Assembly: GCA_029204225.1 (NCBI GenBank)
Contig: CM055111.1
Coordinates: 14,691,861 to 14,755,860 of the forward strand
DNA: 64,000 bases
Origin: Diphasiastrum complanatum
Taxonomy: Eukaryota > Streptophyta > Lycopodiopsida > Lycopodiales > Lycopodiaceae
Direction: 5' to 3'
Part shown: positions 3,429-60,037 of the stretch, one piece after another
Layout: each line of letters starts with the position of its first letter
Position numbering within the stretch: position 1 is the first letter of the stretch
Program-made: the position numbers and the translations under genes
Notes under the pieces: model-generated
The model's database searches: none
The model's input: only the letters and a program-made list of their open reading frames with translations
What the model was told of the DNA's origin: nothing

Positions 3429-6400
3429 TTGTACATGCCTGCCAATTTTTGTTCAGAATTGATTAGCCAAACTAGTATTCAGTGTTATGGACCCACCAAA
3501 TTCACCTATAAGTTGGCTGAATTCGATTCATTCCTCACTTGTGCTAGAGAAGCTCTTGCGAATTTTTTCCGTGACCAAAGCCTTCCAAACTTCCTGACTT
3601 GCTTTTTGATACACTCTCACGTGTCTTACATTTTCTTTTTTCTCATCATGTCTTCTATCGATACTTCCCAATCTCCGTGCTATACTATCCATCGTGATGT
3701 CCCATTTGCAACGGACATCATGATCCTTCCTAGCACAAGCATGGTCACTCAGTGGATGACCCTTGCGGAGCCTCTGCTCACTGCAATGGGTATTCACGAG
3801 AGAGCCTTTTATGGCAGAATCAACATGGATTTCATTACTCTTGCCTTTAGTACGTGGAAGGAAGAGAAATCCAAATTTAAATCACTTTCCAGGAGCCACA
3901 CACAAGATGCACGTCACTGAGGCCGCCTTGTAGCCATAGGCATAACATCCGGTACACAGGCCTCACCCAATCACAAGCAGGCCATCAAGCCATACATTGA
4001 CCTCACCAATGATCTGCATTGGACCAATGACGGATACCTTCTGGAAGCCATCACTGAGCCTTCAATACACGCTACTGCCTAGCTACTGAACAACTTCCTG
4101 ATGGTTGGCAACCTCAGGAAAGACCACATCACATCACAAATCCTCCATAGGATAGTGGACTCCTACACCAAGTTGGCCAAAGCCCCTCTTGAACCATATA
4201 ATTGGTTCAAGACTGTTTCTGGTGAGATCAAATGAGCTATTAAGGCCAATACTAAGCAGCAGTTTGTTGCTGGCTCTTTATTGTCTCTTCTAGCCACTTC
4301 TCACCTAGAAAACCAAATCCATGGTCTCCACCTGGATTTTGTGCTTTTGGAATATGAAGAAGCACCGGCCGAGTCATCTCACCAGGCCCCGAGTTCTCAT
4401 AGTCGTCGTTGTCCACGCAGCGAGATCGTCATTCCTGACTCGCCTTTCGCATCACGATGTCATACTAGGCATACATCGTCAGCTGCGCTTCCACCTCCTG
4501 TTGCTGTTCTCACTGAACTTTCCATTCCCTCCGCCTCTGATGCTTCTCTCGCCTCTGCTGGGCCTACCATTCCCATCATAGTTGCCCAGGCCGTCTCAAC
4601 CCTGCACACCAAAGCCACTTCATTAAACACGCAATTTTTTATGGATATGTCCAATGATTTTGACCCCCTTGGGGTCGCCAAAATTTTTGAAATGGCTCGG
4701 AGCCCTGCGACCTTTGACCTCCAATCTTCTGGAAGAGGATTTGAGCATATCCATGACACTACTGATGATGTTGAAGATGTCATCCAGCAACCTCACAAGC
4801 AAGATAGCTTAGTTGCACTTCGGGTCCACAAAGTTGTGAAATCACCGAAACAGTTCGACGCCACTGTGCCTGAGGGTTTCGAGGAGGAAGACATTTTCGA
4901 AGAAGAAGAAGTACTGGCACCTATTCCATGCCAACCAAGGACCGTACATTAAATCCTCTTGCTGGTACCACCTCCACGACAGTCGATTCTAGTGGTGCTC
5001 TCGGTTTGGTCTCAAGCCTTGTGCAAGTGGTCCAGTCTATGCTTGACAAGACAAAAGAAATGGAGCAGAGAATTTTTGATATGGGGTCCGAAAACACTCT
5101 GATCAGCCAGAAGTTTGTCCAGTTGGATCGAGAGTTAAAGATTGCCAAACATCATGAAGACAAGGCTGAAACCGAAAAGAAGTTGGCCCAGCAACAAACT
5201 GATCACTTGGAAGACTATATTAGCTCTCTACAAAACGCCCTGACAACTGCACATGATCAGGTGGATAAGGCCGTGCAGGATGCAAAACAACAGGTGCAAT
5301 TGCTGAAGAGTCAATTGTAGATGGCGGAACAAGATCACATGTGTCTCCAAGGTGAATTGGATGCGACCACCCTTGAGCGTGATGCTTATCTTCAAACGCA
5401 AATACCAGATCATCCAGTCACACCCATTGAGATCGCATAATTGTTCAAGAAAGTGGAAACATACAAAGTGTCCCTTCAGGGATTCCAAGGCCGCTTTGAC
5501 AGGTTCAAAGGAGTAGCTTCAACCGAGTTGGCAAAGGCTAAAGAGACCATCACCACCTATGAAAAAGCAGCTGTTCAGGTATTGGAAGCCGGACCACAAA
5601 TCCCCATAACGGTCATGCCACAATTCTCCCCTTCATGCCAAAAAGATGTACAAATGGATACATGGGTAGATTCCAGCATGGACAAGGGGGGAGGTCCAAA
5701 TATAGCAAAACAATTGCCAATCTTACCAACAGTACAAGAAGGTCCATCCTCATCAAGGACCACACCTCTATTCAGAAAGCCCATCAGCGTTGAGGACCAG
5801 ATCCAAACCTTCTTAAAGCAACATCCGCATGAGTCCTCGCGTGGGGGTTGGGTTCTGAAGTTTAAGACCTTCGAGATAGAGGCCGACAAAGAGTTGGACA
5901 AAGTACCTGCATTGGGAGAGCAATGGCATGGATAATTACAGTGTTTAAGAAAACTACATATTCAATCAGAAGTTACGTCGCCAGCCCTCAATCAGGAGTT
6001 ACGTCGTCAGCCCTCACCAATTGCGGGTCGACCCTTATTATGTGCCAATGTCGTGAAGGAATCAATGGAAAGATTTGGGATTGGATATGGACAAAATCAC
6101 CATCCATACGTCCAATTGGCCAATCATCCATCAGCCCTACAGCTGGACCATCTCAATGGACTTCCACCGAGCCTTTCAAGCTTATCAGAGAGAGTATGTC
6201 CACTCTCCAGATCCAACGGTGCGACAATCGGCAATGTTTGCTAAAGATCTAACTTTGTTGGCGTCAGTGGCAACTAGATGGGACGATTGCCTCCCTCCTC
6301 TGGCATTCGATCCAAATAAGTCGATGGCCTCAGAGCAAATCAAAGATCAGCTGCCGGTTGCTCGTTTATACTTTCGTGCAGCAAGGATGGGAGGCTCCTG

Positions 6401-26674: not shown

Positions 26675-27359
26675 CACCAAACACTTATGTTTTTGCTATT
26701 GACAATCTTAACCCTTCTCCTTGAAGTTGTGCAATAGACAACCATGTACATAGACCTTCCAAAGTTAGTCACTCACTAGAGCACGTTATACCTTCAAGTG
26801 GAAGATCACTCACTAGAACAAGTTATACCGTCAAGTGGAAGATCTCTTCCAAGAGCATGTCAAGTTCACTTGGGGAAAACATAAGTCCACATTACATAAT
26901 GAAGGCCTAAGGTGTTGGGCCTTGCCATTGGGCTCTAGCCCATGGGCAAAAGGGCTCCCACAAGTTATTTTGCATCCATGTGTGTGTGCGTGATCGAATT
27001 CATTTTTATGCACACCAGGTTGCATATATCGTCAATATTTACATATAATGACAAAACATATAAACACCAATGGCCACTAAAGTGACAAATTGGCAGGTGA
27101 GTCCGGATAAAAGTCTAAACATGATATCTCAAAAAATATAGCATCAGCTAATTTGTGAAAAAAACTCAATTACTTGTATAAATATGGCGCCATAATCAAT
27201 GGTGCTTTTGTTCTCACATTTTTCATGTATCCATTAAGATAAGTGTCTTGAAAATCAGGATAATGAATACTAGAAAAAAAAATGGATAGGCAATAGTTCT
27301 AAATCTACAAAAATTGGTGTCTGATGATATTCTAGGAAAAATCAAATACACCCCTCTCC
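26675..27359. other. Intergenic DNA left of Gyp-2
   Basis: No gene. A near-palindromic stretch (gggctctagccc) occurs near 26930. If the inversion described in the findings is real, this flank was originally contiguous with the DNA now ending at 52198. Confidence 0.5.
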
Positions 27360-27364
27360 AACAT

Positions 27365-28106
27365 TGTTGGAGGGTTAGCGGATCCCAAGGCAACCCTAAC
27401 CCTAGTTAATAAGTGAGAGGGATTTGGCACCCTGCGTGTGTAAGTCCAACCCAATGATCACATAGTTATTTGATTAATTAGAATGTTAATAAAAGGACTT
27501 TAGGCCTTTTTGCAGGACTTTTAATGTCGCAAGGCCTAAATGTCAAGTTAGTGAATAAAGTTGGGTTTCCCTCCAATTTTGATGGTTCTCACACTTTTTT
27601 AAATTTGAATAAAAAGAGAGGCAAGACTGGACCAATAGGATTCAGAGGCCAGGGTCCTCCTCTCTACTATAAAAAGGGACCAACTCGAGTTGCTCCTGAT
27701 GTTCATTTCCTCATTTCAATAAAGCAGATTGGTTCTCTTTAGAAATGGATTGATGAATGTCCTTGCTCTTCCTCTCTTTTCCTCCATTTCTCATGATTCC
27801 TTTGTATTTGCTAATTGTTGGATTTGATCATTATTGCGATTGCTATTTCTTATGCTTTTTGTGAGAGAGAAAAGGAGAGAGAGAAGAGTAAGTGTCTATC
27901 TTTGTTGTGGATTTAGGGTTAATGGATGTAGTGTTAATGCTTAGTGTTAATGGATGTTAGTGTTAGATCCTCCATTCATGTTGAAATCTGAACTATATTA
28001 TTGCTCTCATGGGAACGAACCTCCGCGTGACAACTAACTCCGTCTCTTTGATGCTAGATTGACTAGATCTTGGATTCAGGTTAGGCAAGGAAAGAAACCC
28101 ACTACA
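27365..28106 (+). repeat. Gyp-2 5' LTR
   Basis: 742 bp, TGTTGGAGG...CCACTACA, preceded by AACAT (27360-27364). It has a TATA box (ctactataaaaaggg) near 27663. It matches the LTR at 52199-52942 at about 97% by eye (roughly 20-25 differences), closer than either is to the Gyp-1 LTR. Confidence 0.95.
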
Positions 28107-28110
28107 GTTT

Positions 28111-28128
28111 TGGCGCCGTTGTCGGGGA
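28111..28128 (+). other. Gyp-2 primer-binding site (tRNA-Asp type)
   Basis: tggcgccgttgtcgggga lies 4 bp after the LTR. This sequence is complementary, with about one mismatch, to the 3' end of plant tRNA-Asp, the primer used by Athila/Tat-type gypsy elements. Confidence 0.9.
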
Positions 28129-29325
28129 GCTACTCCAATTTTTCAATTTGCAGCATGTTTGGTTGATGGTTAGCTTGCATCAGGCATCTTGTCGTGGCAT
28201 GAATAGTGTTAAATCTACATTGTAGAGTTAGTTTGGGATTGATTTCGCTAGATTTGAGTGGATTTGCTTGTTTGAAATCTAATCTGATTATTAAACAGGG
28301 AAGGCTATTCAGATCACCAATCTTAAAATTCACTTGGATCTGAGATATCAGAGAAAATAACAAAAACTGGTCAAATCTACCAAATTTAGTTAAAAAGAGA
28401 CAAAAAGCGTCATCAGAGTTCAGAACTTTTTACCCTCTTTCAGGAAACCTTTGCCGAGTTTCAGACACCTTTGGTTATGTTTACAGAACCTTCAGTTTGA
28501 AGGGCGAAGATTAATTCCCAGCAGATTTCCAAAAACATTAGAAAAACCACCAAAAAAATACCAAAATTTATCAAAACCCTAAAAAATACAGAAAAAGAAC
28601 CTTCACTTGATCCAATGTGCTTAGATGTGATTCAGATCTATCTGTTGCCAGGTCGGCGAAGAATAATACCAAAAATAGAAAGGTTTTCAGAGGATCAGTT
28701 GTCATATTGTCATATTTTTGCCAAAAAAGTCACTTTTTTGCAAAATTACCAGTATTACTCTTGATCCTTCGCCAGAACCTTCGCCGATTTTCCAGAACAT
28801 TCTATTTATAAAAAAATACTATTTTTGAGTTCGACGAAGATTCATCTTGATCAGATCAAAAAAAAATTTGATATTTACCCTCGTTAGTTTACAAAAACTG
28901 TTTTTTCTTGTGTCAGAAACCTTCATCCGGTTGACCATAGTTTTATCTGTGTCAGATCTTTCATCTGAGAAGTCGACGAAGGTTATTTCCCAAGAAATTG
29001 CTAGAAAAGTGTTCAGAGAGTTTTTATTCCAAAATAGCACTGTTGAACCTTTGCCGAGACAACCTTCGCCAGTCCTATTTTTAGTTTCTGATTTTCCAGA
29101 TCAAGTCTCTGTCAAAATTTGGATCAAATCTGATATATTCTGAATTGGACTCTGAGAGATTTAACATTTTTGAGAAGTATCGATTGATCAAATTTTGGGT
29201 AGTTTTTCATCATATAGAATCCGATTCTTGAAAAGTGGAATAGAGCTAGCAGATGTAATCTGAGATAGTTTTTTTGGAAAAATCTATATCCAATCTCATT
29301 ATCGATTTGATCTAAATTTGTAAAG
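28129..29325 (+). other. Gyp-2 5' leader with CCTTCGCC-type motif cluster
   Basis: A 1.2-kb untranslated leader. About nine to eleven copies of a motif near AACCTTCGCCGA or its complement are scattered between 28445 and 29075, some in close pairs (28764-28792 and 29045-29075). No convincing ORF. Confidence 0.75.
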
Positions 29326-30595
29326 ATGGCTGCCCCTGGAGCTGCTCCTGGAGGTGCTCCACAGGAAATCAATCCAATTATTGTTAGAAGAGCACCCCGA
29401 TTGGATCTACCCAAATATAATGGATTAAAAGATCCAGTTAGATTTCTTCAGATCTATGCTGAATCCTGTGAGGTCTATGGTGAGATTTATCCTCAAGATA
29501 GATTTAAGTTGTTTCCTATGGCCTTAACAAGCGTAGCACAAGATTGGTACTATAACCAAGATGAAACTGAACGTACAGATTGGGAGGTTGTTAAACGAGC
29601 CCTTATCACACAGTTCAAACCGCGGAAGTTTATGAAAGACCCTTTCCTACTTTTAAGTAAAATTAAAATGGGAAAGTGGGAAATGGTTTGAGATTACATT
29701 GAAAGGGTGAAACGTCTTATATCTGAATGTGAGCCTGAGCTGATTAATGACAATGCCATGGTTATGTGGTTTTTGTCAGGTCTACCTAAACACATCAGAC
29801 GTGAGATGAAACGCCATAATGAGTATGCACTTTTGCAAAATGCGGACGATGCAATTCGGGAGGAGGATGAAGATTCAGATGATGAGCCGAATGTCAGTAT
29901 GTTGCCTTATACAGTAGGACAGATTACTACGACATCCATCATTATTGCATCAACGAATGCCAATGCTATTGCAGAAATGATGCTCAATGAGTTCGAGAAA
30001 CTTGGGAAGACCCAGCAGAAACAGATGGAAAAGTTGCAGTTGCAATTTGATGAGAAGATCAAAGCATTAGAAATTTTCCATGGAGAAGCGAACAAGGAAC
30101 TTGAGAAGTTTGCAAAGACTTTTCCTACCAGGGAAAATGTCTGGTGTTCTATTTGTACAGAAAATCACACAGTGAACGAGTGTCCTCAATTGAAAAAACG
30201 AATGGAAATCAGTATTTGCCATTTGTGTAATTCACCTGACCATGAGACTGCCTTTTGCAATTTCAACCCTCGGATAATTCAACAATGGTATGCCCAGATG
30301 GGATATCGAGATCCACAGTATGGAGGCAATCCAGCAGCAAGACTACGACACTCTACTCTTGGATACCCGGAACGTCTAGCTTTGCTTGCCCCACCAAAAC
30401 ACTCTGCTCCTCCTACCAATTTGATGGAACCAAAACCTTACGGAAGTGCTGAGCAATGGAGCTACGGTAATGATCAAGAAGGTGGATCTTCATAACAGTA
30501 TGCCATTTATGCTGCCGCTCAACAACAAGCCTCGAGAAATTGGGCCAGAGCACCACTTGGATGCTTTTCATGTGGAGAAAATCACAGAGTTGCGT
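29326..30595 (+). mobile_element. Gyp-2 gag, broken, fused to copia at its 3' end
   Basis: It starts MAAPGAAPGGAPQ and continues into the retrotransposon gag (capsid) domain (LPKYNGLKDPVRFLQ...AQDWYY), then a coiled stretch and zinc knuckles: CSICTENHTVNEC, CHLCNSPDHETAFC and the start of a further one (CFSCGENH) near 30567-30590. About one or two breaks. The reading ends abruptly at about 30595, where copia RT sequence takes over. Protease and pol of the same family are at 56739-59833 on the other strand. Confidence 0.92.
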
Positions 30596-44758: not shown

Positions 44759-45646
44759 CTATGCTTTGCTATAACCCTTGAGTAGCCGCTCGACATACTT
44801 CCCCACAATGTCCACTTCAAGGTTGACTTTGCTCCCAAGCTTCTTCACTGGAATCACAATCTTTTGCTGTGTGTAAGCCACCAGCATAAATGTAAAACTG
44901 CTCTCCTCATCATAAACCCCAACAACTGTCAAACTGGTCCCGTCCACAGATATGTAGCCTTTCGGCACAATGTATCTCAGTAGATCTGCCGATGTTTTTA
45001 TCTTAACCCATAATGAATCCCCTTCTGGATTGAAGGATACAATAGTTCCTGTGCCGTCCACATGTCCCTGCACGAAATGGCCCCCCATCCGGGACACTGG
45101 CTGCAGCGACCGCTCCAGATTGACCGGAGATCCAGCAAATGCCTCCCCTAAGGAAGTTCTTCGAAGGGTTTCTGGAGACAAACCGACGGTGAAACCCTTG
45201 GAATCAAAATGCGTGACAGTGAGGCATGTGCCGTTCACGGAGATGCTATCCCCAAGCTTCACATCCTCAATAACAATGTTTGCGTCTATCCTCATCTCAT
45301 AGCCGCCATCTTCCGTCAATCGCACCTCTCGCACATTTCCCAACTCTTCCACAATGCCTGTGAACAAAGCCCGTAACCCTAATTGTTCGGATCGTCCCCT
45401 GTCGTTATTGCGAGCTACAAAATGTGTTGCTGCTGTTGTTTGTCTCAAAAGCTGGGAAGGCTTCTTCCCAATGGGTCTGAGTCCCCTCCATGTCTGCAGC
45501 CCAAGGGAAAGGGAAGCATCTTGCCTGAGAAATGGGCGCGAGAGCGAGTAAACTGTTGGACAGTGTTGGGGTTCTGCTTCTGCCTGAGATGGCAACTGCA
45601 CAGCAACAGATGCTGCTGCAGAAGAAATGCCTGGAAGCGTAGGCAT
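44759..45646 (-). CDS. Riboflavin synthase, plastid-targeted (295 aa, single exon)
   Basis: Catalyses the last step of vitamin B2 synthesis: dismutation of two 6,7-dimethyl-8-ribityllumazine to riboflavin plus the pyrimidinedione, in plants in the plastid. Residues 1-93 form a Ser/Arg/Gln-rich extension fitting a transit peptide. The enzyme starts at LFTGIVEELG (94-103; bacterial forms begin MFTGIVE) and has the expected two lumazine-binding barrels: barrel 1 with GDSISVNGTCLTV (132-144) and NLERS, barrel 2 from about GGHFVQGHVDG (188-198) to VEVDIVGKY-like LEVDIVGKYVERLL. His195 and the Asp235/Ser238/Thr240 cluster in SVDGTSLTV correspond to catalytic positions. The core of about 200 residues is full length. 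No intron is needed and the frame is clean, so it looks functional. It lies inside the proposed 29-kb inverted segment. Known as the RibE/RibC type in bacteria; no plant symbol assigned. Confidence 0.97.
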   Translation of the reverse strand: MPTLPGISSAAASVAVQLPSQAEAEPQHCPTVYSLSRPFLRQDASLSLGLQTWRGLRPIGKKPSQLLRQTTAATHFVARNNDRGRSEQLGLRALFTGIVEELGNVREVRLTEDGGYEMRIDANIVIEDVKLGDSISVNGTCLTVTHFDSKGFTVGLSPETLRRTSLGEAFAGSPVNLERSLQPVSRMGGHFVQGHVDGTGTIVSFNPEGDSLWVKIKTSADLLRYIVPKGYISVDGTSLTVVGVYDEESSFTFMLVAYTQQKIVIPVKKLGSKVNLEVDIVGKYVERLLKGYSKA

Positions 45647-45729
45647 AGTCGCTCACACTTTTGCTGACAATGCCACAGCAGCGATTCCTCCCCTCAATCC
45701 CCTCCTTGCCCGCCCCGTTCGTTCGTTCG

Positions 45730-50008: not shown

Positions 50009-51141
<1,133 letters not shown>

Positions 51142-52193
51142 TGGTACCAGAACCTACCTAAGACAATAATCCATGCATCAAGAGTGATGAAAAATTTGGC
51201 TTGAAATGTAGATCTTGTGAGTGTAGTTGCATCTCCATAGCCATCTCCACCTCCACCTTCATCTCAAAGGCAACAAGTAGCACCAAGGAGAGTGGGTTGG
51301 CCCAGAGATCCAGCATGGCTGAAAGATATTAAGAGGCTTCAAAAAACGATGAACCTCCTCATCCCCAAGGCTCACATGCAAAGATGTATCAAGTAGGTGA
51401 CCAAGGATATTTCAGCAGATGTAAGATGGACTGTGACTGCAGTTGAAACACTGCACAAATTTTATGAAAATTTTTAAATAAAACTCTTTTCAGATTGTGT
51501 TGTAGCTGCAATACATGGAAGAAGGATAACAATAAGTCCCAAAGATTTTGTGCTGATATTTCATATGATGGATGCATATGAGACATTTGCCCATAATTTT
51601 CGGCCACCTCATCCTGCTTCAGCTATTGCTACCACCACTTTAGCAAGGAAGATGAAGTAGGTTGAACCAAAGAGGCTACCAGGAATCGTTCAACATGTTG
51701 CTATCAAAAAGAAAAGATCCTTAGCCCCTCCAAAGAAAGTGAGGGCTATTCTAAAGTTAGTAGCTTCTCCTTGAACACCAACCCCTTCTCCCCCCTCTTC
51801 TTCCTCTTCATCATCTTTTCCCAAGTCCCCATTCAAGTACCCATCCAAGTCCCCTTCCAAATCTCCTCAAAAATCAGTTTCTAAATCCCCTTCCAAATCT
51901 CCTCCCAATACACATAAATCAGTTTCTAAATCCCCTCCCAAATCTATTGAACAGTCCACACAACTCTCTAAATCGTTTTTCCCGAGTGATACATTGAGCC
52001 ATATTTTTGTATCTTTTCCCGCCCCTCCTTCATTAACTTTTGTAGATTCTAATAAATATGTACAGTACGATCAATTACTTTCTACTCATCTAAAATATTT
52101 CGTCCCCATTACAATTTTCAATCTCCTCTTATCATACCATGACTTCGCTAGAGACATAGGAATTAGAAAATAAAGATAAACTGTTAGGGGACA
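51142..52193 (+). mobile_element. Element H: primer site and decayed ORF with histone H3 (CENH3-like) fold and Ser-Pro-Lys tail
   Basis: A tRNA-Met-type primer site, slightly decayed (tggtaccagaacc), directly follows the LTR. The coding stretch behind it (about 51188-52173) keeps one dominant frame with about five breaks. At 51313-51560 it matches the histone H3 fold: helix-N pattern WLKDIKRLQKTM, NLLIPKA (51352-51372), VRWT (51421-51432), LFSD (51484-51495), AIHGRRITI (51508-51534) and PKDF (51538-51549). NLLIP, RWT, LFSD and KDF are closer to plant CENH3 than to canonical H3 (which has LLIRK, RFQ, LFED, KDI), but loop 1 has canonical H3 length. A basic stretch and a tail with about six Lys-Ser-Pro motifs (51820-51945) follow. 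The last ~75 codons are unrecognised. No gag or pol is seen; the element is cut by Gyp-2 at 52194-52198. Confidence 0.75.
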
Positions 52194-52198
52194 ATGTT

Positions 52199-52942
52199 TG
52201 TAGTGGGTTTCTTTCCTTGCCTAACCTGAATCCAAGATCTAGTCAATCTAGCATCAAAGAGACGAAGTTAGTTGTCACGCGGAGGTTTGTTCCCATGAGA
52301 GTGATAGTATAGTTCAGATTTCAACATGAATGGAGGATCTAACACTAACTTCCATTAACACTACATCCATTAACCCTACTTCCATTAACCCTAAATCCAC
52401 AACAATGATAGAAACTTACTCTTCTCTCTCTCCTTTTCTCTCTCACAAAAAGCATAAGAAATAGCAATCCCAATAATGATCAAATCCAACAATTAGCAAA
52501 TACAAAGGAAGCATGAGAAATGGAGGAAAAGAGAGGAAGAGCAAGGACATTCATCAATCCATTTCTAAAGAGAATCAATCTGCTTTATTGAAATGAGGAA
52601 ATGAACATCAGGAGCAACTTGAGTTGGTCCCTTTTTATAGTAGAGAGGAGGACCCTGGCCTCTGAATCCTATTGGTCCAGTCTTGCCTCTCTTTTTATTC
52701 AGATTTAAAAAAGTGTGGGAACCATCAAAATTGGAGGGAAACCCAACTTTATTCACTAACTTGACATTTAGGCCCTGCGACATTAAAAGTCCCGCAAAAA
52801 GGCCTAAAGTCCTTTTATTAACATTCTAATTAATCAAATAACTATGTGATCATTGGGTTGGACTTACACACGCAGGGTGCCAAATCCCTCTCACTTATTA
52901 ACTAGGGTTAGGATTGGCTTGGGATCCGCAAACCCTCCAACA
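52199..52942 (-). repeat. Gyp-2 3' LTR
   Basis: 744 bp, on the minus strand TGTTGGAGG...CCACTACA. Outside it the minus strand reads AACAT (52194-52198), the same five bases that precede the 5' LTR at 27360-27364. The polypurine tract (ttggtgggggatac) lies at about 52943-52957. Confidence 0.95.
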
Positions 52943-55900
52943 GTATCCCCCACCAAAACTGGTGGCGGTCCTACGACACCTACAATATGCAGTTATTGGG
53001 GACTTTTATTGGCTTCGCGCCGAATCTTAATTAAATGATACTGCACCTTCTCCATAAAATCAAGGTGTGTAGTATTGAAATCCAAATTATGCGGCAGGAA
53101 ACAACGGTGGGCTCCGGCAATCCACTTGGAAGTTGTCCATGAGGTGAAGCGGGATTCCCAAGAGCCTCCCATCATAGCCGCACAAAAATACAGTCGAACA
53201 ATCGACAGTGATCTTTGATTTGCTCTGAGGCCATCGGCTTATTTGGATCAAATGCCAGGGTAGGAAGGCAATCGTCCCATTTGGTTGCCACTGACGTCAA
53301 AAAAGTTAGATCTTTTGCAAACATTGCCGATTGTCGCACCGTTGGATCCGGAGAGTGGACATACTCTCTCTGATATGCTTGTAAGGCCCGGTGGAAGTCC
53401 ACTGAAATGTTCCAGTTGTAAGGTTGATGGATGATTGGCCAATTGGGCGTATGGATGGTGATTTTGTCCATAGCCAATCCCAACTCTTTCCATTTATGTC
53501 TTTGTGGCATTGGCACATAATAAGGATCTACCCGCAACTGCGATTCTCCATGCCGACTGCTCTCCCAGTGCAGGTATTTTGTCCAATTCTTTGCCGACCT
53601 CGATCTCGAAGGTCTTAAATTTGAGAACCCATCCCCCACGCGAGGACTCATGTGGATGTTGCTTTAAGAAGGTCTAGATCTAGTCCTCAACGCTGATGGG
53701 CCTTATGAATAAATGGCTTGTCCTTGATGAGGATGGAGCCACTTGTACTGCCTGTATGATTGGCGGTTGATCTGCTAGATCTGGAGCTCCTCCCTGGTCC
53801 ATGCTCGAATCAACCCCTGTATCCATTTGTACAGCTTCTTGGCGTGAAGGGGAGAATTGCGGCATGACTGGGACAAGGATTTGTGGTCCGGCTTCCAACA
53901 CTTGAGTGGCGGCTTTTTCATAGGCGTTGATGGTCTCTTTTGCCTTTGTCAGCTCGGTTGAAGATGCTCCTTTGAACCTATTGAAGCGGCCTTGGAATCC
54001 CTGAAGGGCCACTTTGTATGTTTCCATTTTCTTGAACAAATATGCAATCGTCGTCGGTGTGACCAGATGATCGGGTATTTGTGTTTGCAGATAGGCATCA
54101 CTCTCAAGGGTGGTCGCATCCAATTCACCTTGAAGCCATGTGCGATCTTGTTCGGCCATCTGTAATTGCCCCTTCAGCAGCTGCACTTGTTGCTTGGCCT
54201 CTTGCACTGCCTTATCTACCTGATCCTGTGCGATTGTCAAGGCGTTTTGCAAGGAGCTGATGTAGGTTTCCAAGCGATCAGCTTGTTGCTGGGCCAATGT
54301 CTTTTCACTTTCGCCCTTTTCTTCATGTTGCTTGGCTATCTTCACCTCTCGATCCAGCTGGACAATTTTCTAGCTGATCAGAGTGTTTTCGGATCCTAGA
54401 TCAGAGATCCTCTGCTTTATTTCCTTCTTCTTATCCAGCATAGACTGGATCACTTGCCCAAGACTGAAAACTAACCCTAGAGCATCACCAGAATCAACGG
54501 TCGTGGAGGTGGCAGCAACAGGAGACCCTGATGGTACTGTCCTTGGTAGGCGTGGACTAGGTGCCAAGGTCTCTTCTTCTTCAAAAGTATCCTCTTCTTC
54601 AAACCCTTCAGGCACCGTGGCATCGAATTGCTTTGGTGACTTTACAACTGTGTCGACTCGAAGTGTGGCTGGGCTACCCTGTGTGGGTGGTTGCTGACTG
54701 ACATCTTCGACACCAACCGTAGATTCATGGATATGCCCAAATTCTCTTCCAAGGGATTGGAGTTCAAAGGGCACTGGGCTCTGGAGCATTTCAAAGATTT
54801 CGGTGGCCCCAAGGGGGTCGGAATCATCGAACATATCCATGAAGAACTGTGTGTTAGGTGAGGTTGCTTCGATGTGCAGGGGTGAGGCGGCCTAGGCAGA
54901 TGTGATGGGAATGGTAGGCCCAATGGTCACTGTTTGTCCTTGTATGGGAGTAGAGGTGAGGGAAACATGAGAGGCGAGGGGAATGGGAAGTTCAGTGCGA
55001 ACAACATCAGGAGGTGGAAGCGCAGCTAACGAGGTATGCCTAGTGCGACGTCGTGACGTGGAAGGCAAGTAAGGAATTACGATCTCGCTGCGTGGACGAC
55101 GACAACTATGAGAACTTGAGGCCTGATGAGATGACTCAGCCGGTGCTTCTTCGTAAACCGAAAGCACAGAATCTAGGTGGAAGCCATGGATTCTGTTTTC
55201 TAAGTGAGAAGCGGCTAAGAGGGACAATAGAGAGCCAGCGACGAACTGCTGCTTTGTATTGGCCTTAATAACTCGCTTGAGCTCACCAGAAACAGTCTTG
55301 AACCAGTTATATGGTTCAAGAGGAGCTTTGGCCAACTTAGTGTGAGACTCCACTATCTTGTGAAGGATTTGAGATGTGATGCGGTCTTTCCTGAGGTTGC
55401 CAACCATCTGGAAATGATTCAACAACTGGGCAGCGGTGTGGATGGAAGGCTCAGTGATGGCTTCTAGAAGGTAGCCATCATTAGTCCAGTGCAGATCATT
55501 GGTGAGGTCAATGTATGGCTTGATGGCCTGTTTGGCATGCTTGTGATTGGGTGAGGCTTGCGTACCAGATGAGATTCCTATAGCTGCAAGTGCGGCCTCA
55601 GTGATGCGCACTTTGTGTGCGGCTCCTTGGAAGGTGATATAAAACTTGGATTTCTCTTCCTTCCACGTACTAAAGGCAAGAGTGATGAAATCCATATTGA
55701 TGCATCCTGAAAAGGCTCTCTCATGAATACCTATTGTAGTAAGTAGAGGCTCCGCAAGGGTCATCCACTGAGTACCATGCTTGTGCTAGGAAGAATCATG
55801 ATGTCCGTTGCAGATGGGACATCACGATGGATAGTATAGCGTGGAGACTGGGAAGTATTGGTAGAAGACATGATGATCAGAAAGGAATTATAAATGCGTG

Positions 55901-56089
55901 AAAGTGTATCAGAAGGCAATGCAAGAAATCTGGAAGGCTTTGGTCACAAGAAAAATTCGCAAGAGCTTTGCTAGCATAGGTGAGGAATGAATCAAATTCA
56001 ACCAACTTATAGGTGAATTTGGTGGGTCCATTACACTGAATAGTAGTTGGGCTGATCAGTTCTAAACAAAAATTTGCAAGCATGTACAA
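52943..56089 (-). mobile_element. Gyp-2 extra ORF between pol and 3' LTR, moderately broken
   Basis: Better preserved than the Gyp-1 copy. Minus strand: N-terminal globular part (55764-54892, 290 codons uninterrupted; starts around MTLAEPLLTTIGIHERAF), Pro/Ser-rich acidic part (54840-54370), coiled coil rich in Gln/Lys/Glu (54345-53680), and C-terminal globular part (53651-52993). No membrane segment or signal peptide stands out, so I do not call it an envelope. Unrecognised family. About five breaks. Confidence 0.78.
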
Positions 56090-56738
56090 TACTGTAAAAA
56101 TAGGCTATAGAAATCTTGGCGAAGGTTTCTAGGGATCTGAACCTATCAGGCGAACGTTTTCCAGAGCTGGCGAAGGATGAACCTTCGCCCAGGAGGGTCC
56201 TTCGCCCAGGTACTGTCATAAATATTTTTTTCCACAATCTGAACCTATTGACAACCTAATTTTGACATTTTAAAATCATCTAGCAGGTCGGCGAAGGTTC
56301 ATAATGAGGTTATGATACTCGACAAAGATTCTCAAAATGAAATATCACTGAACATTCGCCTGACTCAAAAATTGATTTTTCTCTTGTCAAAACTTTCGCC
56401 CACTTCAATTCAAATAAATGAAGGGTGGATGTACAGTCTGAGAGCTCAGCGCAGGTTTCTGATACTGTATTGGCCAATTCTGTCCAAACAGTGGTTTTCT
56501 AAGTCATTTTTCATAAAAAAAAAAAATATTGTGCTTCCTTTTTCTTATGCTGATGACTTCTTGACTTTTGCTCATCAGTCTTTCTTTATTTTATTTTTTT
56601 TCTCTTTTTCTTGTTTTTTTTTTTTTAACTGTCTTTTTCCAAAAAAAGTCAGCAAATTAAATACTGAGAACAAAAAATTGAAAACAAATAAAATAAAAAT
56701 ATATATTGAGATCAGACTTGCTGAACTGGCAGAGCAGG
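56090..56738 (-). other. Gyp-2 spacer between pol and 3' ORF, with CCTTCGCC-type motifs
   Basis: Motif copies near 56118, 56150, 56170, 56182, 56204, 56290, 56355 and 56395, in both orientations. T-rich and non-coding toward 56590-56640. Confidence 0.75.
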
Positions 56739-59700
56739 CTACCAAAACTTGCGTAATCGGTTGTCATTGATTCGAGTATCAAATCGTTTTCCATCCAAGT
56801 GCTCAAGAATTACTTTGTCATAGTTCAGGATTTCCTTCATTTTATACGGGCCTTCACCAGTAAACTTCAACTTACCCTTAATCAGCTTGGTTTTGTACAT
56901 CAATGCAAGATCTCCTGCTTCCAGATCTTTCTTGTGCAATCGACAATCGTGCCATGCCTTGCAGCGGGCTTTCTCTGCTGCTAAGGCATGAACTGCCATC
57001 AATCGGGTTTCACATAATTTGTGCAACGCTTCATGACGAAGTTGTAAAAACTGATCATCATTTAATCGTTCTATTGCTGCTATGCGTAAAGATGGGATTA
57101 AAAATTCAATTGGCATAACAACATCTTGACCATAAACCAATTGAAAAGGTGTTTGATTTGTACTATTTTTGTAAGCGGTTTTGAATGCCCATAATGTTGC
57201 ATACAGTTTATGTTCCCAATCAGACCGACTTGCTTCAACTGTCTTTGTCATAATGGTGCAGAGAATCTTATTGGAAAATTCAGCTTGGCCATTCCCTCTG
57301 GGATAATAGGGAGTACTAAATCTGTGTATAACAAAAAAATCTTCCAATAAACAATTTATTGTTTGATTAACAAAGTGTGTACCCCGATCACTGACAATTT
57401 CAATCGGACATCCAAATCTGATTATAATATTTTCATATAGAAACTTGGCCGTAGATTTCACATCAGTCACTTTGACAACTTTGGCTTCAACCCACTTGGT
57501 CATATAATCAGCTGCGACAATAATGTATCGGGCCTGAGATCCTTGCACAGCGGGATGAATAGGACCAACATAATCAAGTTCCCATTTTTCAAACGGTGCT
57601 TGCGATAAAACCAGATGTAAGGGTTCATAATTCTGTCGAGTAGGTCGTCGTGCTCACTGGCAGACATCACATGTCTGAATAAAATTTTCTGTGTCCTTAT
57701 GAAGCATAGGCCACCAACAACCGAATTGCAAAAGTTTGCGAACAGTAATATCTATAGAGAAGTGTCCTCCACCCATGCCATCATGTGAAAACATGATTAA
57801 ATCTGGTACTTCATGCGGTAAAACACATCTTCGTAAAATATTATCTGATCCACGACGATACAATTGTCTTGCAATTAATTGATAAGGTTGAGCCTTATGA
57901 ATCAATTGTCTTTTCTGTACTTTTGTCAAAGAGTCATTCGGTTGTCCTAGCATTAGGTACTCAACAATATCTGCCGCCCACTCAGGTATTGCTTCAACAT
58001 AGAACAACGTAGCATCTGGCAGTTCATCATCCACTTCAGTATTAACTGGTGCGGATTCAATTTGCGAAATGTGATCGGCTAGATAATGTTGCTTCCCCTT
58101 TCTGACCACAATTCGAAAGTCAAATTCAGTCAATAATAATAACCATCTTGCAATACGTCCAGTATTACATGTCTTATTTACCAAGTAAAGTAACGGTTGA
58201 TGATCCGTATGAAATGCAAAGTGCATTTCCATGAGGTAGTGACGAAATTTCTGAACAGAAAAAATCATGGCTAGTGCTTCACGTTCTGTTGTTGAATAAT
58301 TCTTCTTTGGATCTGTAAGTTGTCTGCTTGCAAATCGTATAGGATAATCCTTCTTATAGTCACCTGGCTGCGTTAAAAATGATCCAATGGCGTATTTTGA
58401 GACATCCGTATGAACATGAAACTCTAATGTCCAATCTGGAGAACCAGAATTGGTGCTGAAGATAATGCTTTTTTTTACTTTTCAAAGGCTTCTAACGCCT
58501 CTACTGTCCAAATAGGAACAGTAGTTAATTTGTATATAGGTCGTGCTAAATTCGCAAAGAAGACAATAAAAATTCAATAGTAGTTCGCATGACCCATAAA
58601 CACATAAACTCCTCGAATTGTTGCTGGCAGTGAAAATTCCACAATAACTTTGATCTTAGAATAATCGGTGGTAATACCATGTCTTGATATCACATGTCCA
58701 AGCACCACTCCATGAGAAATCCATATCTGGCATTTTTCTGGATTTAGAGAAATCTGATATTTGCGGCATCTTTCAAAGACTTTCTCTAATCGATCCAGGT
58801 GGTCTGTATCTGTACTATGAACTCCCAAGTCGTCCAATAAATTTCAAGGAATTTCTGTAGATAATCTTTAAAGGTAAATTGCATTACTCTTTGGAATGAA
58901 CTTGGTGCATTATAGAGTCCAAATGACATTACTTTGTAAGCATAGGTGTCCCATTCTGTTGCAAAAGCAATTTTGTGGCGATCGGCAGGTGCAATCTTAA
59001 CCTGGTTGTAACCACTAAATCCATCCAGGAAACTATAAGCTTCCGTTCCAGCAAGGCGATCCAAAATGCTTTCAATAAAAGGCAACGGAACGTGATCCTT
59101 CCGTGTCACTTTATTCAATGCTTTGAGATTCACACAGATTTGCAATTTTCCAGCCACTGGCTTGATAGTCCAAGTTGTAGGATCAACTTTAACTGCACGT
59201 TCACGATTTTCAAAAGTGAGTTTGCCGGTACCCCAGTTATGAATTACTTGTGCAACTCGTAACCATGGACGTCCTAAGAGAACTCGGTAGACATTTGGTG
59301 CTTCTGGTAAGTCCATCACGACGAAAGTAATGACGAACTGTACTCCTACAATCCTGACAGGTATATCTTCCACCATTCCTCGTGGACAAACTGTCGTTTG
59401 ATCAGCTAGTTTAATAGCAAAAGTAGCAGGCTTAATCTTTGTAAGGCCCCATTTTGTACATAGCTTTGTAGAAATCAGGTTAACTCCTGAACCGCCATCT
59501 ATCACGACTGCTTCTTTAGAAAATTGTCTATATTGTATCGACAGAGTGATATTCTTTTGTTCACTTTCCCAAGCGGCTCCAACATGGAGTACATCGTTAG
59601 ATTCTTCAAATCCAGCACAAAAAAGCGGCTCCTGATGGTCTTCTGATTCTTCTTGAGCTAACTTTTGCGTTAAGACTTCTTTTGCTTTTGGCACCAACTT

Positions 59701-59833
59701 TAGGAACTCTCCCAATGAGATATTGATCTTGCTAGACAAAATATTCATGAGTAATTCTGTATGCGGTGCTTCTTCAAAAAGCACACTTTGTCTTCTTCTC
59801 CATGTTTGATGAATCCCTCGGGTTGGCACATCT
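56739..59833 (-). mobile_element. Gyp-2 protease, RT, RNase H and integrase, broken; fused to copia at its 5' end
   Basis: Minus strand: aspartic protease (VVIDGGSGVNLIS near 59510) and RT N-terminus (59829-58786), RT palm/connection (58837-58574), RNase H and integrase zinc-binding part (58268-57654), integrase core and C-terminus (57548-56739, including VSDRGTHF and YYPRGNGQAEF). The parts are collinear with Gyp-1 and clearly the same family. Four long open stretches with about five breaks. Upstream of 59833 the sequence switches to copia RT. Confidence 0.94.
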
Positions 59834-60037
59834 AAATTTTCTCTTCCAAAAATCCATTCAAGAAATTATTTGTCACATCAAGTTGAAAGAACTCCCATTT
59901 GAAAGAAGTAGCAAGACATATGATCAATCTAATGGTTACAAGCTTTGCAACAAGAGCAAAGGTTTCATCATAATCTATTTCTTTGACTTGCAAAAATCCT
60001 TTTGCTACAAGTCTAGCCTTATACTTATGAATGGAAC
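59834..60037 (-). mobile_element. Copia E: N-terminal RT fragment
   Basis: Minus strand: KYKARLVAKGFLQVKEIDYD, then FQLDVTNNFLNGFLEEKI, the conserved start of copia RT, ending abruptly at the Gyp-2 junction. Its natural continuation (YVDD half) is of the type found at 30597-31330. On the other side it is cut by the LTR starting at about 60038. Confidence 0.85.

Follow-up and report, generated by a model that had tools for sequence, protein, structure and literature searches.

Histone H3-like genes of putative DNA transposons in Diphasiastrum complanatum and a dead copy joined to a copia-type LTR

An H3-type frame, an LTR and a nested element in the window

The window, the 64,000-nucleotide stretch of Diphasiastrum complanatum DNA analysed here (contig CM055111.1, positions 14,691,861 to 14,755,860), harbors a dead reading frame of the histone H3 type. 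The frame extends from an ATG at 51187 to a stop at 52171, and the residues on which a histone H3 fold had originally been predicted (NLLIPKA, VRWT, LFSD, AIHGRRITI and PKDF) are all present in it, in a single frame and in H3 order. About five breaks had been expected; the frame is indeed dead, with four stops inside the histone (TAG at 51394-51396, TAA at 51475, TAG at 51658 and TGA at 51772) and two in its leader part (51202 and 51238), but it contains no frameshift. When 51241-51657 is read through with an X at two stops (P0001), the product matches the Pfam Histone profile (PF00125) with E 2.2e-16 and 60.6 bits (cut-off 26.4 bits) over profile positions 24-117 of 122, indicating that the H3 fold is real and not a chance resemblance, and it matches PDB H3 chains with E 1.2e-14 over residues 26-105. 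Taken singly, the open pieces give a weak signal: of the five searched, one (51478-51657) matches the same profile, at E 0.018 and below the cut-off.

Based on the start points of genome copies and on two repeat copies, L033 and L034, the histone belongs to a 5'-truncated fragment of an H3-like element at 51241-52194 (plus strand), referred to below as family C. Its H3 fold lies at 51316-51579 (plus strand), as placed by Pfam, PDB and tblastn with the folds of families B and C, and is followed in the same frame, as read, by a Ser/Pro/Lys-rich tail and C-terminal part at 51775-52170 (plus strand). The H3 start ARTKQTAR is missing from this truncated copy, and its loop 1 has H3 length in the alignment, lacking the CENH3 insertion as had been predicted. 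The window histone is 34-35% identical to the host's own H3 and 81-82% identical in the fold to L033, which rules out a processed host H3 pseudogene. A protein database search with P0001 gave 21 candidates, none of them significant. The C-terminal part resembles that of family B weakly, with 6.8 bits, a score exceeded by 4 of 2000 shuffles. Elsewhere in the window, a long open frame at 44759-45652 (minus strand) resembles riboflavin synthase by eye and is probably a host gene.

The sequence upstream of the histone is that of an LTR. A genome search with window 50250-51240 as the query (40 scored of 3969 candidate places) yielded 13 places that begin at query 285-287 and 10 that stop at query 892-895, corresponding to 51141-51144. 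The LTR end predicted at 51141 is thus confirmed, and these shared start and end points identify 50535-51141 (plus strand) as a copia-type LTR of 607 bp, TGTG...TTCACA. Its left limit is provisional, because copies of the repeat adjoining it at 50251-50534 (plus strand; 92-96% identical) weakly match the right half of the LTR: 17 of the 40 scored places match only or mainly query 2-285, at 92-96% identity, and several of these have a weak match of 66-70% to query 581-986 close by. This repeat is perhaps part of a related LTR and may belong to a related, younger LTR family. The predicted primer binding site at 51142-51154 (plus strand) agrees at 11 of 13 bases with the tRNA-iMet consensus, leaving two mismatches. 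The same layout of LTR end and primer site (TTCACA/TGGTA) recurs at other sites in the window.

A copia-type leader follows at 51155-51242 (plus strand), as delimited by alignments to two other LTR copies, L035 and L036. Besides the window and its duplicate, five of the 40 scored places extend beyond the primer site into leader sequence. Of these, L035 is 91% identical to window 51149-51242 and L036 is 88% identical to window 51187-51246, after which each continues with its own sequence. Beyond the leader, L035 carries a copia gag (Retrotran_gag_2, PF14223, E 1e-8), and no histone was found behind the LTR in either of these two copies, the two that were read further. The histone copies behave in a complementary way. 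A search with the histone stretch (40 scored of 587 candidates, 90 match rows) gave 88 rows that start no further upstream than query base 80 (51229), one of them at base 80 itself and many at 92-96 (51241-51245), and two that reach the LTR leader, namely the window and an identical duplicate. This duplicate, at C20:15103067-15105011 (minus strand), is inverted and lies about 360 kb from the window, and may reflect a recent duplication or assembly doubling. As the two LTR-histone places are 100% identical, on the same contig and in opposite orientation, they represent one event that was duplicated. Where the window has the LTR leader, L033 reads MARTKHTARLSSGG, an H3-type start. The histone sequence thus begins at about 51241 and not, as predicted, at 51142.

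LTR copies diverge at this point, histone copies start there, and L033 has its own H3-type start, all indicating that the join between leader and histone, which falls within a short CCA/TCT-rich overlap at 51240-51246, is a single rearrangement. Whereas a copia-type gag occurs behind this LTR in the sister copy L035, the histone of the window is no gag and is joined to the leader by this rearrangement. The prediction that this LTR element carries the histone in its gag place is therefore not supported; nor were further histone copies found behind the same LTR among the 40 scored histone and 40 scored LTR candidates, apart from the window and its one 100% identical duplicate, and none of the scored places has a histone bounded by this LTR on both sides. 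The idea of an LTR retrotransposon that acquired an H3 or CENH3 gene in its gag position and used it to reach centromeric chromatin is scarcely credible. In its favour, the LTR, the primer site and an ATG located 32 bases after that site are in line with the histone frame, a layout found at two genome places. Against it, these places are a single duplicated event, neither of the two LTR copies followed beyond the leader leads to a histone (L035 enters a copia gag), 88 of 90 histone match rows start beyond query base 79, and L033 has an H3-type start of its own in place of the leader.

At 52194 the histone element is interrupted by the insertion of a gypsy-type element. One LTR of this nested element lies at 52195-52942 (minus strand) and matches the other, at 27365-28106 (plus strand), with 97% identity in inverted orientation; its type was judged by eye from ORFs. 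Position 52195 had been considered as the start of the histone element's own 3' LTR and was rejected, as it is the end of the nested minus-strand LTR. The histone element continues at 26960-27364 (minus strand), where L033 2642-3015 and L034 2638-3044 match, and the two flanks, when joined by script, align to L033 and L034 in one piece. The stretches 26960-30500 and 52195-59900 seemingly constitute one gypsy-type element split by an inversion of about 29 kb, with its LTRs opposed, a gag-like ORF near one of them and RT/integrase-like ORFs near the other (by eye). The simplest account of this arrangement would be a single insertion followed by an inversion, one breakpoint of which lay within the inserted element. 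Families B and C have in common a further ORF or exon downstream of the histone (tblastn E between about 1e-5 and 1e-7), located at 3528-3788 in the B copy L018, 2918-3103 in L033, 2905-3069 in L034 and 26974-27096 (minus strand) in the window. It has no Pfam match, and a ULP1 protease, which had been considered for the ORF behind the B histone, found no Pfam support.

H3-like families with inverted termini and a candidate transposase

A Pfam Histone search of the whole genome (1.74 Gb; 150 scored of 6325 first-look candidates) revealed 13 places at 163.7-165 bits; the eight of them that were read proved to be ordinary H3. The remaining listed places, with three exceptions, have scores of 95-110 bits, many of them lying in frames 300-400 aa long, and are distributed over contigs C1-C23 and smaller contigs. 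Twenty of these, picked from the 150 best scores for their long frames (a choice that favours conserved folds), comprise 13 members of a family A and 7 of a family B. The A protein (about 410 aa, with one open frame in L009) starts with MARTKQTAR, continues through Ser/Arg-, Gln- and Pro-rich stretches and has the H3 fold at its end, and the B protein (about 330 aa) starts with MDRRKQTRR, followed closely by the fold and then by an additional C-terminal part. Pfam Histone scores are 98.3 bits for L018, 100.2 for L012, 66.7 for L033 and 27.0 for L034, all above the cut-off of 26.4. In a tree, the window family C groups nearer to B (support 93/81). Among the 120 listed of 355 hits to the B protein, each covers 25-40% of the query, and the C-terminal part of B is absent from the ten hits that were read. 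The structure model of the whole B protein was unusable (pLDDT 35).

Both families have ends that can be recognized. Two B copies share 8.7-9.3 kb with near-identical, inverted 35-bp ends (CATTAGAGGAGTTC...), and the A terminus (CATTAGGGCCC...) is present on both sides of one copy and on a single side of others. The termini of A and B are inverted and read 5'-CATTAG...CTAATG-3'. Allowing up to three mismatches, 2378 places in the genome match the B terminus and 1848 the A terminus, counts that take in lone ends and short derivatives, while the reversed-pattern controls gave 0. In two cases, A termini lie about 1 kb apart (C1:67871296-67872435 and C4:15745948-15746971), and these pairs probably represent MITE-like derivatives that arose by internal deletion. 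On C1 (101.6 Mb), 27 of the 80 exact B termini listed lie, counted by eye, at 95-101 Mb, a clustering that could stem from a localized burst or from a preference for this part of the chromosome.

Inspection by eye of 100 listed terminus places picked out four B pairs whose termini are 8-12 kb apart; each of them encloses the histone gene, cut short in one pair after about 110 codons. Besides the histone, families A and B have transposase-like ORFs and 3-4 further ORFs in common, in an order and orientation that differ between the families. Direct repeats of 3 bp flank 2 of 10 terminus pairs (six B, four A) and are absent from the other 8, in a sample in which the B pair L043/L044 (11.8 kb) may be two elements and the A pairs are known from termini alone. 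For one insertion, B2, which lies in a copia element, the empty form is present in the window; its joined flanks align over 240 of 240 bases, indicating that no base was duplicated at this site. No inverted termini were found for family C in the two 5-kb stretches read.

The transposase-like protein belongs to no Pfam family, and none of its 41 relatives in a large database has an informative name. Their alignment contains a set of conserved residues: D63 (39/39), C83 (40/40), H126 and H131 (both 41/41), E165 (36/41) and C86 (39/40), the latter being S in the query copy and C in L025. The C(2)C and H(4)H pairs lie between the invariant D and the conserved E, and D63, E165 and the motif residues are predicted to be catalytic. 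The model of the protein is of good quality (pLDDT 84), and Foldseek found no match to it in the PDB at E <= 0.001. Like members of the CMCT (CACTA-like) clade, A and B have 5'-CA...TG-3' termini and a candidate transposase with C(2)C/H(4)H between D and E. Unlike CMCT elements, they show duplications at 2 of 10 pairs, have no profile or fold match to a known member, and carry an H3-like gene. The protein is thus considered a candidate transposase that is CMCT-like, but it is not filed as a CMCT member, because target-site duplications of 2-5 bp are mostly not seen.

The claim that mobile elements carry an H3-type histone thus holds in a form other than the one proposed: where ends could be read, the histones of A and B lie in DNA elements, and a role of this LTR element as the carrier is not supported. 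In the window, 51241-52194 together with 27364-26960 (minus strand) is very probably a dead family C copy, whose sisters A and B are DNA transposons with a standard H3-like gene, and the LTR came to it by rearrangement.

Conserved residues, constraint and the relation to CENH3

At the N-terminal start of the element histones, Lys4 is present in 22 of 22 copies (13 A, 7 B, 2 C) and Lys9 in 0 of 22, demonstrating that three diverged families kept the Lys4 neighbourhood and lost Lys9. Position 9 is Asp (11) or Gly (2) in A, Asp (6) or Gly (1) in B, and Leu in both C copies. ARTKQTAR is exact in 6 of the 13 A copies, with one or two changes in the rest; B starts with MD[RK]RKQTR, with changes in 2 of 7 copies; the C starts are MARTKHTAR in L033 and TKQTTR, without an ATG, in L034. 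The ARKS motif, the context of Lys9 and Lys27, is absent from 19 long A and B frames, most of the A frames among them being without the N-terminal part, and L033 has an AAAKS further on that could stand for the Lys27 context.

Within the fold, all 20 rows from A, B and C retain R69, R83, H113, R116 and K122. D123 is found in all but one B row, K115 is K or R, and T118 and L126 are present in all but the C row of L033, whereas R49, R52, K56, K64, R72, Q85, S86 and C110 of H3 vary among the rows. In H3, these residues contact DNA or the second H3.

The coding sequences indicate constraint on the same fold. Between the B subfamilies, dN/dS is 0.12 in the fold (dN 0.063, dS 0.51), 0.51 in the linker and 0.38 in the C-terminal part; for the seven B copies pooled, the corresponding values are 0.22, 0.68 and 0.43. 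As these seven had been picked by histone score, the analysis was repeated on four copies picked by their termini, yielding 0.27, 0.48 and 0.44 when pooled and 0.28, 0.67 and 0.40 against L018. Single pairs vary: L046 against L045, one from each B subfamily, gives 0.13 for the fold, 0.38 for the linker and 0.47 for the C-terminal part, and L047 against L045 goes against the trend (0.36, 0.91 and 0.29). Stops or frame gaps interrupt the histone gene in each of the four terminus-picked copies, indicating that constraint is a property of the lineage that was copied and not of the copies. Family A has 0.38 in the fold and 0.63 in the N-terminal part. In family C, the window against L033 gives 1.26 on 17 differences, and three copies taken in two halves give 3.47 on 24 and 0.48 on 34 differences; these values show no clear constraint, in keeping with dead copies. 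The B fold is under purifying selection. The H3-like protein is a regular and selected part of the B elements seen, and is present in A. As a separate observation, the dS of the fold between B subfamilies (0.51-0.55) is about 2.6-3.4 times that of the C-terminal part (0.15-0.21), a pattern resembling an exchange of the fold among lineages.

The original assignment also pointed to CENH3-like residues, and this stands in part: all 20 rows have Pro at H3 position 63, like plant CENH3, but loop 1 of A and C has H3 length. Thr is found at position 85 in nearly all element rows, again as in plant CENH3, and loop 1 of B is one residue longer, like that of rice CENH3. The plant CENH3 sequences in both the alignment and the tree are provisional; the tree has 33 rows, with the A loci L020 and L024 and the C locus L034 left out. 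The best tree has the element histones and plant CENH3 on one side of a branch with support 53/7, and a grouping of A with plant CENH3, subject to the same provisional sequences, has a p-AU of 0.278. Element histones and plant CENH3 share the LLIP motif and Thr at 85, as well as KDF in B and C, but differ in that they are 33-54% identical and that A and C lack a loop 1 of CENH3 length.

Possible roles of an element-encoded H3

In plants, H3K9 methylation and DNA methylation on transposons reinforce each other. The H3-like protein of A, B and C may pair with H4 and enter nucleosomes. Such a histone could not carry the H3K9 methyl mark, because its position 9 is Asp, Gly or Leu, and it would retain Lys4, a site of activity marks. 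An H3 with Lys4 and without Lys9 may therefore weaken the loop between H3K9 methylation and DNA methylation on the elements. We tentatively suggest that the elements build their own nucleosomes, with the element H3 replacing host H3 nearby, keeping Lys4, removing Lys9 and evading H3K9 silencing. Alternatively, the protein could act as a decoy or competitor for proteins that read the H3 start. The anti-silencing reading is the most likely role of those considered, while in its full form less likely than not, and centromere targeting through a CENH3 ancestry is its main rival. If true, anti-silencing by an element histone would constitute a new route, one that alters the substrate of silencing rather than its enzymes, and an element-encoded H3 would be a possible source of host histone variants.

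That the histone is a CENH3-derived variant that targets the elements or their insertion to centromeres, either as drive or as safe harbour, is unlikely but is the strongest of the alternatives. It draws on Pro63 in 20 of 20 rows and Thr85 in nearly all, both as in plant CENH3, on the side of the branch that the element histones occupy in the best tree, and on the 27 of 80 listed exact B termini of C1 at 95-101 Mb; that branch, however, has a support of 53/7, and A and C have a loop 1 as long as that of H3, that of B being one residue longer as in rice CENH3. Less probable still is the notion that the histone ORFs are passenger fragments of a host H3 or CENH3 captured by accident, whose protein has no role. 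DNA transposons do capture gene fragments, as stated in PMC13317346, and many copies carry stops, but the B fold is constrained between subfamilies (more weakly in terminus-picked copies), every copy examined from the three diverged families retains Lys4 and has another residue in place of Lys9, and 4 of 4 terminus-picked elements carry the histone gene. An endogenised DNA virus of unknown type carrying a histone, instead of a transposon, is very improbable: ORFs on both strands without a Pfam match above cut-off and the existence of histone-bearing viruses (PMC9145170) would be consistent with it, but the thousands of places with short inverted termini and a transposase-like gene bearing the CMCT motif argue against it, as does a scan of viral contigs that found no relative, using P0022, an H3 fusion from another source and not the A or B protein, as its query.

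Searches of the open full-text literature turned up no transposon or LTR element encoding a core histone. Transposons carrying other chromatin cargo are described in PMC12730594, and include fungal elements with TET/JBP dioxygenases, the oomycete HarbingerS and MuDR elements with SET methyltransferases, and plant Vandal elements with self-regulating proteins. These carriers resemble A and B in that an element protein is aimed, by proof or presumption, at host silencing, but their cargo is an enzyme or regulator, whereas that of A and B is a structural histone. Viral histones, among them the H4 of bracovirus and the histones of Marseilleviridae (PMC9145170), are similar in that histone genes reside on a selfish element. 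In contrast to these, the elements here have terminal inverted repeats, an H3 with long extensions and a high copy number.

A comparable arrangement was observed in proteins from ENA contigs. P0002, P0005, P0022, P0077 and P0094 (388-425 aa) have a MARTKQTA start, a long insert and an H3 fold at the end; P0022 and P0094 have 150 and 134 member sequences, respectively, and the five may form another, independent family of repeated H3 fusions.
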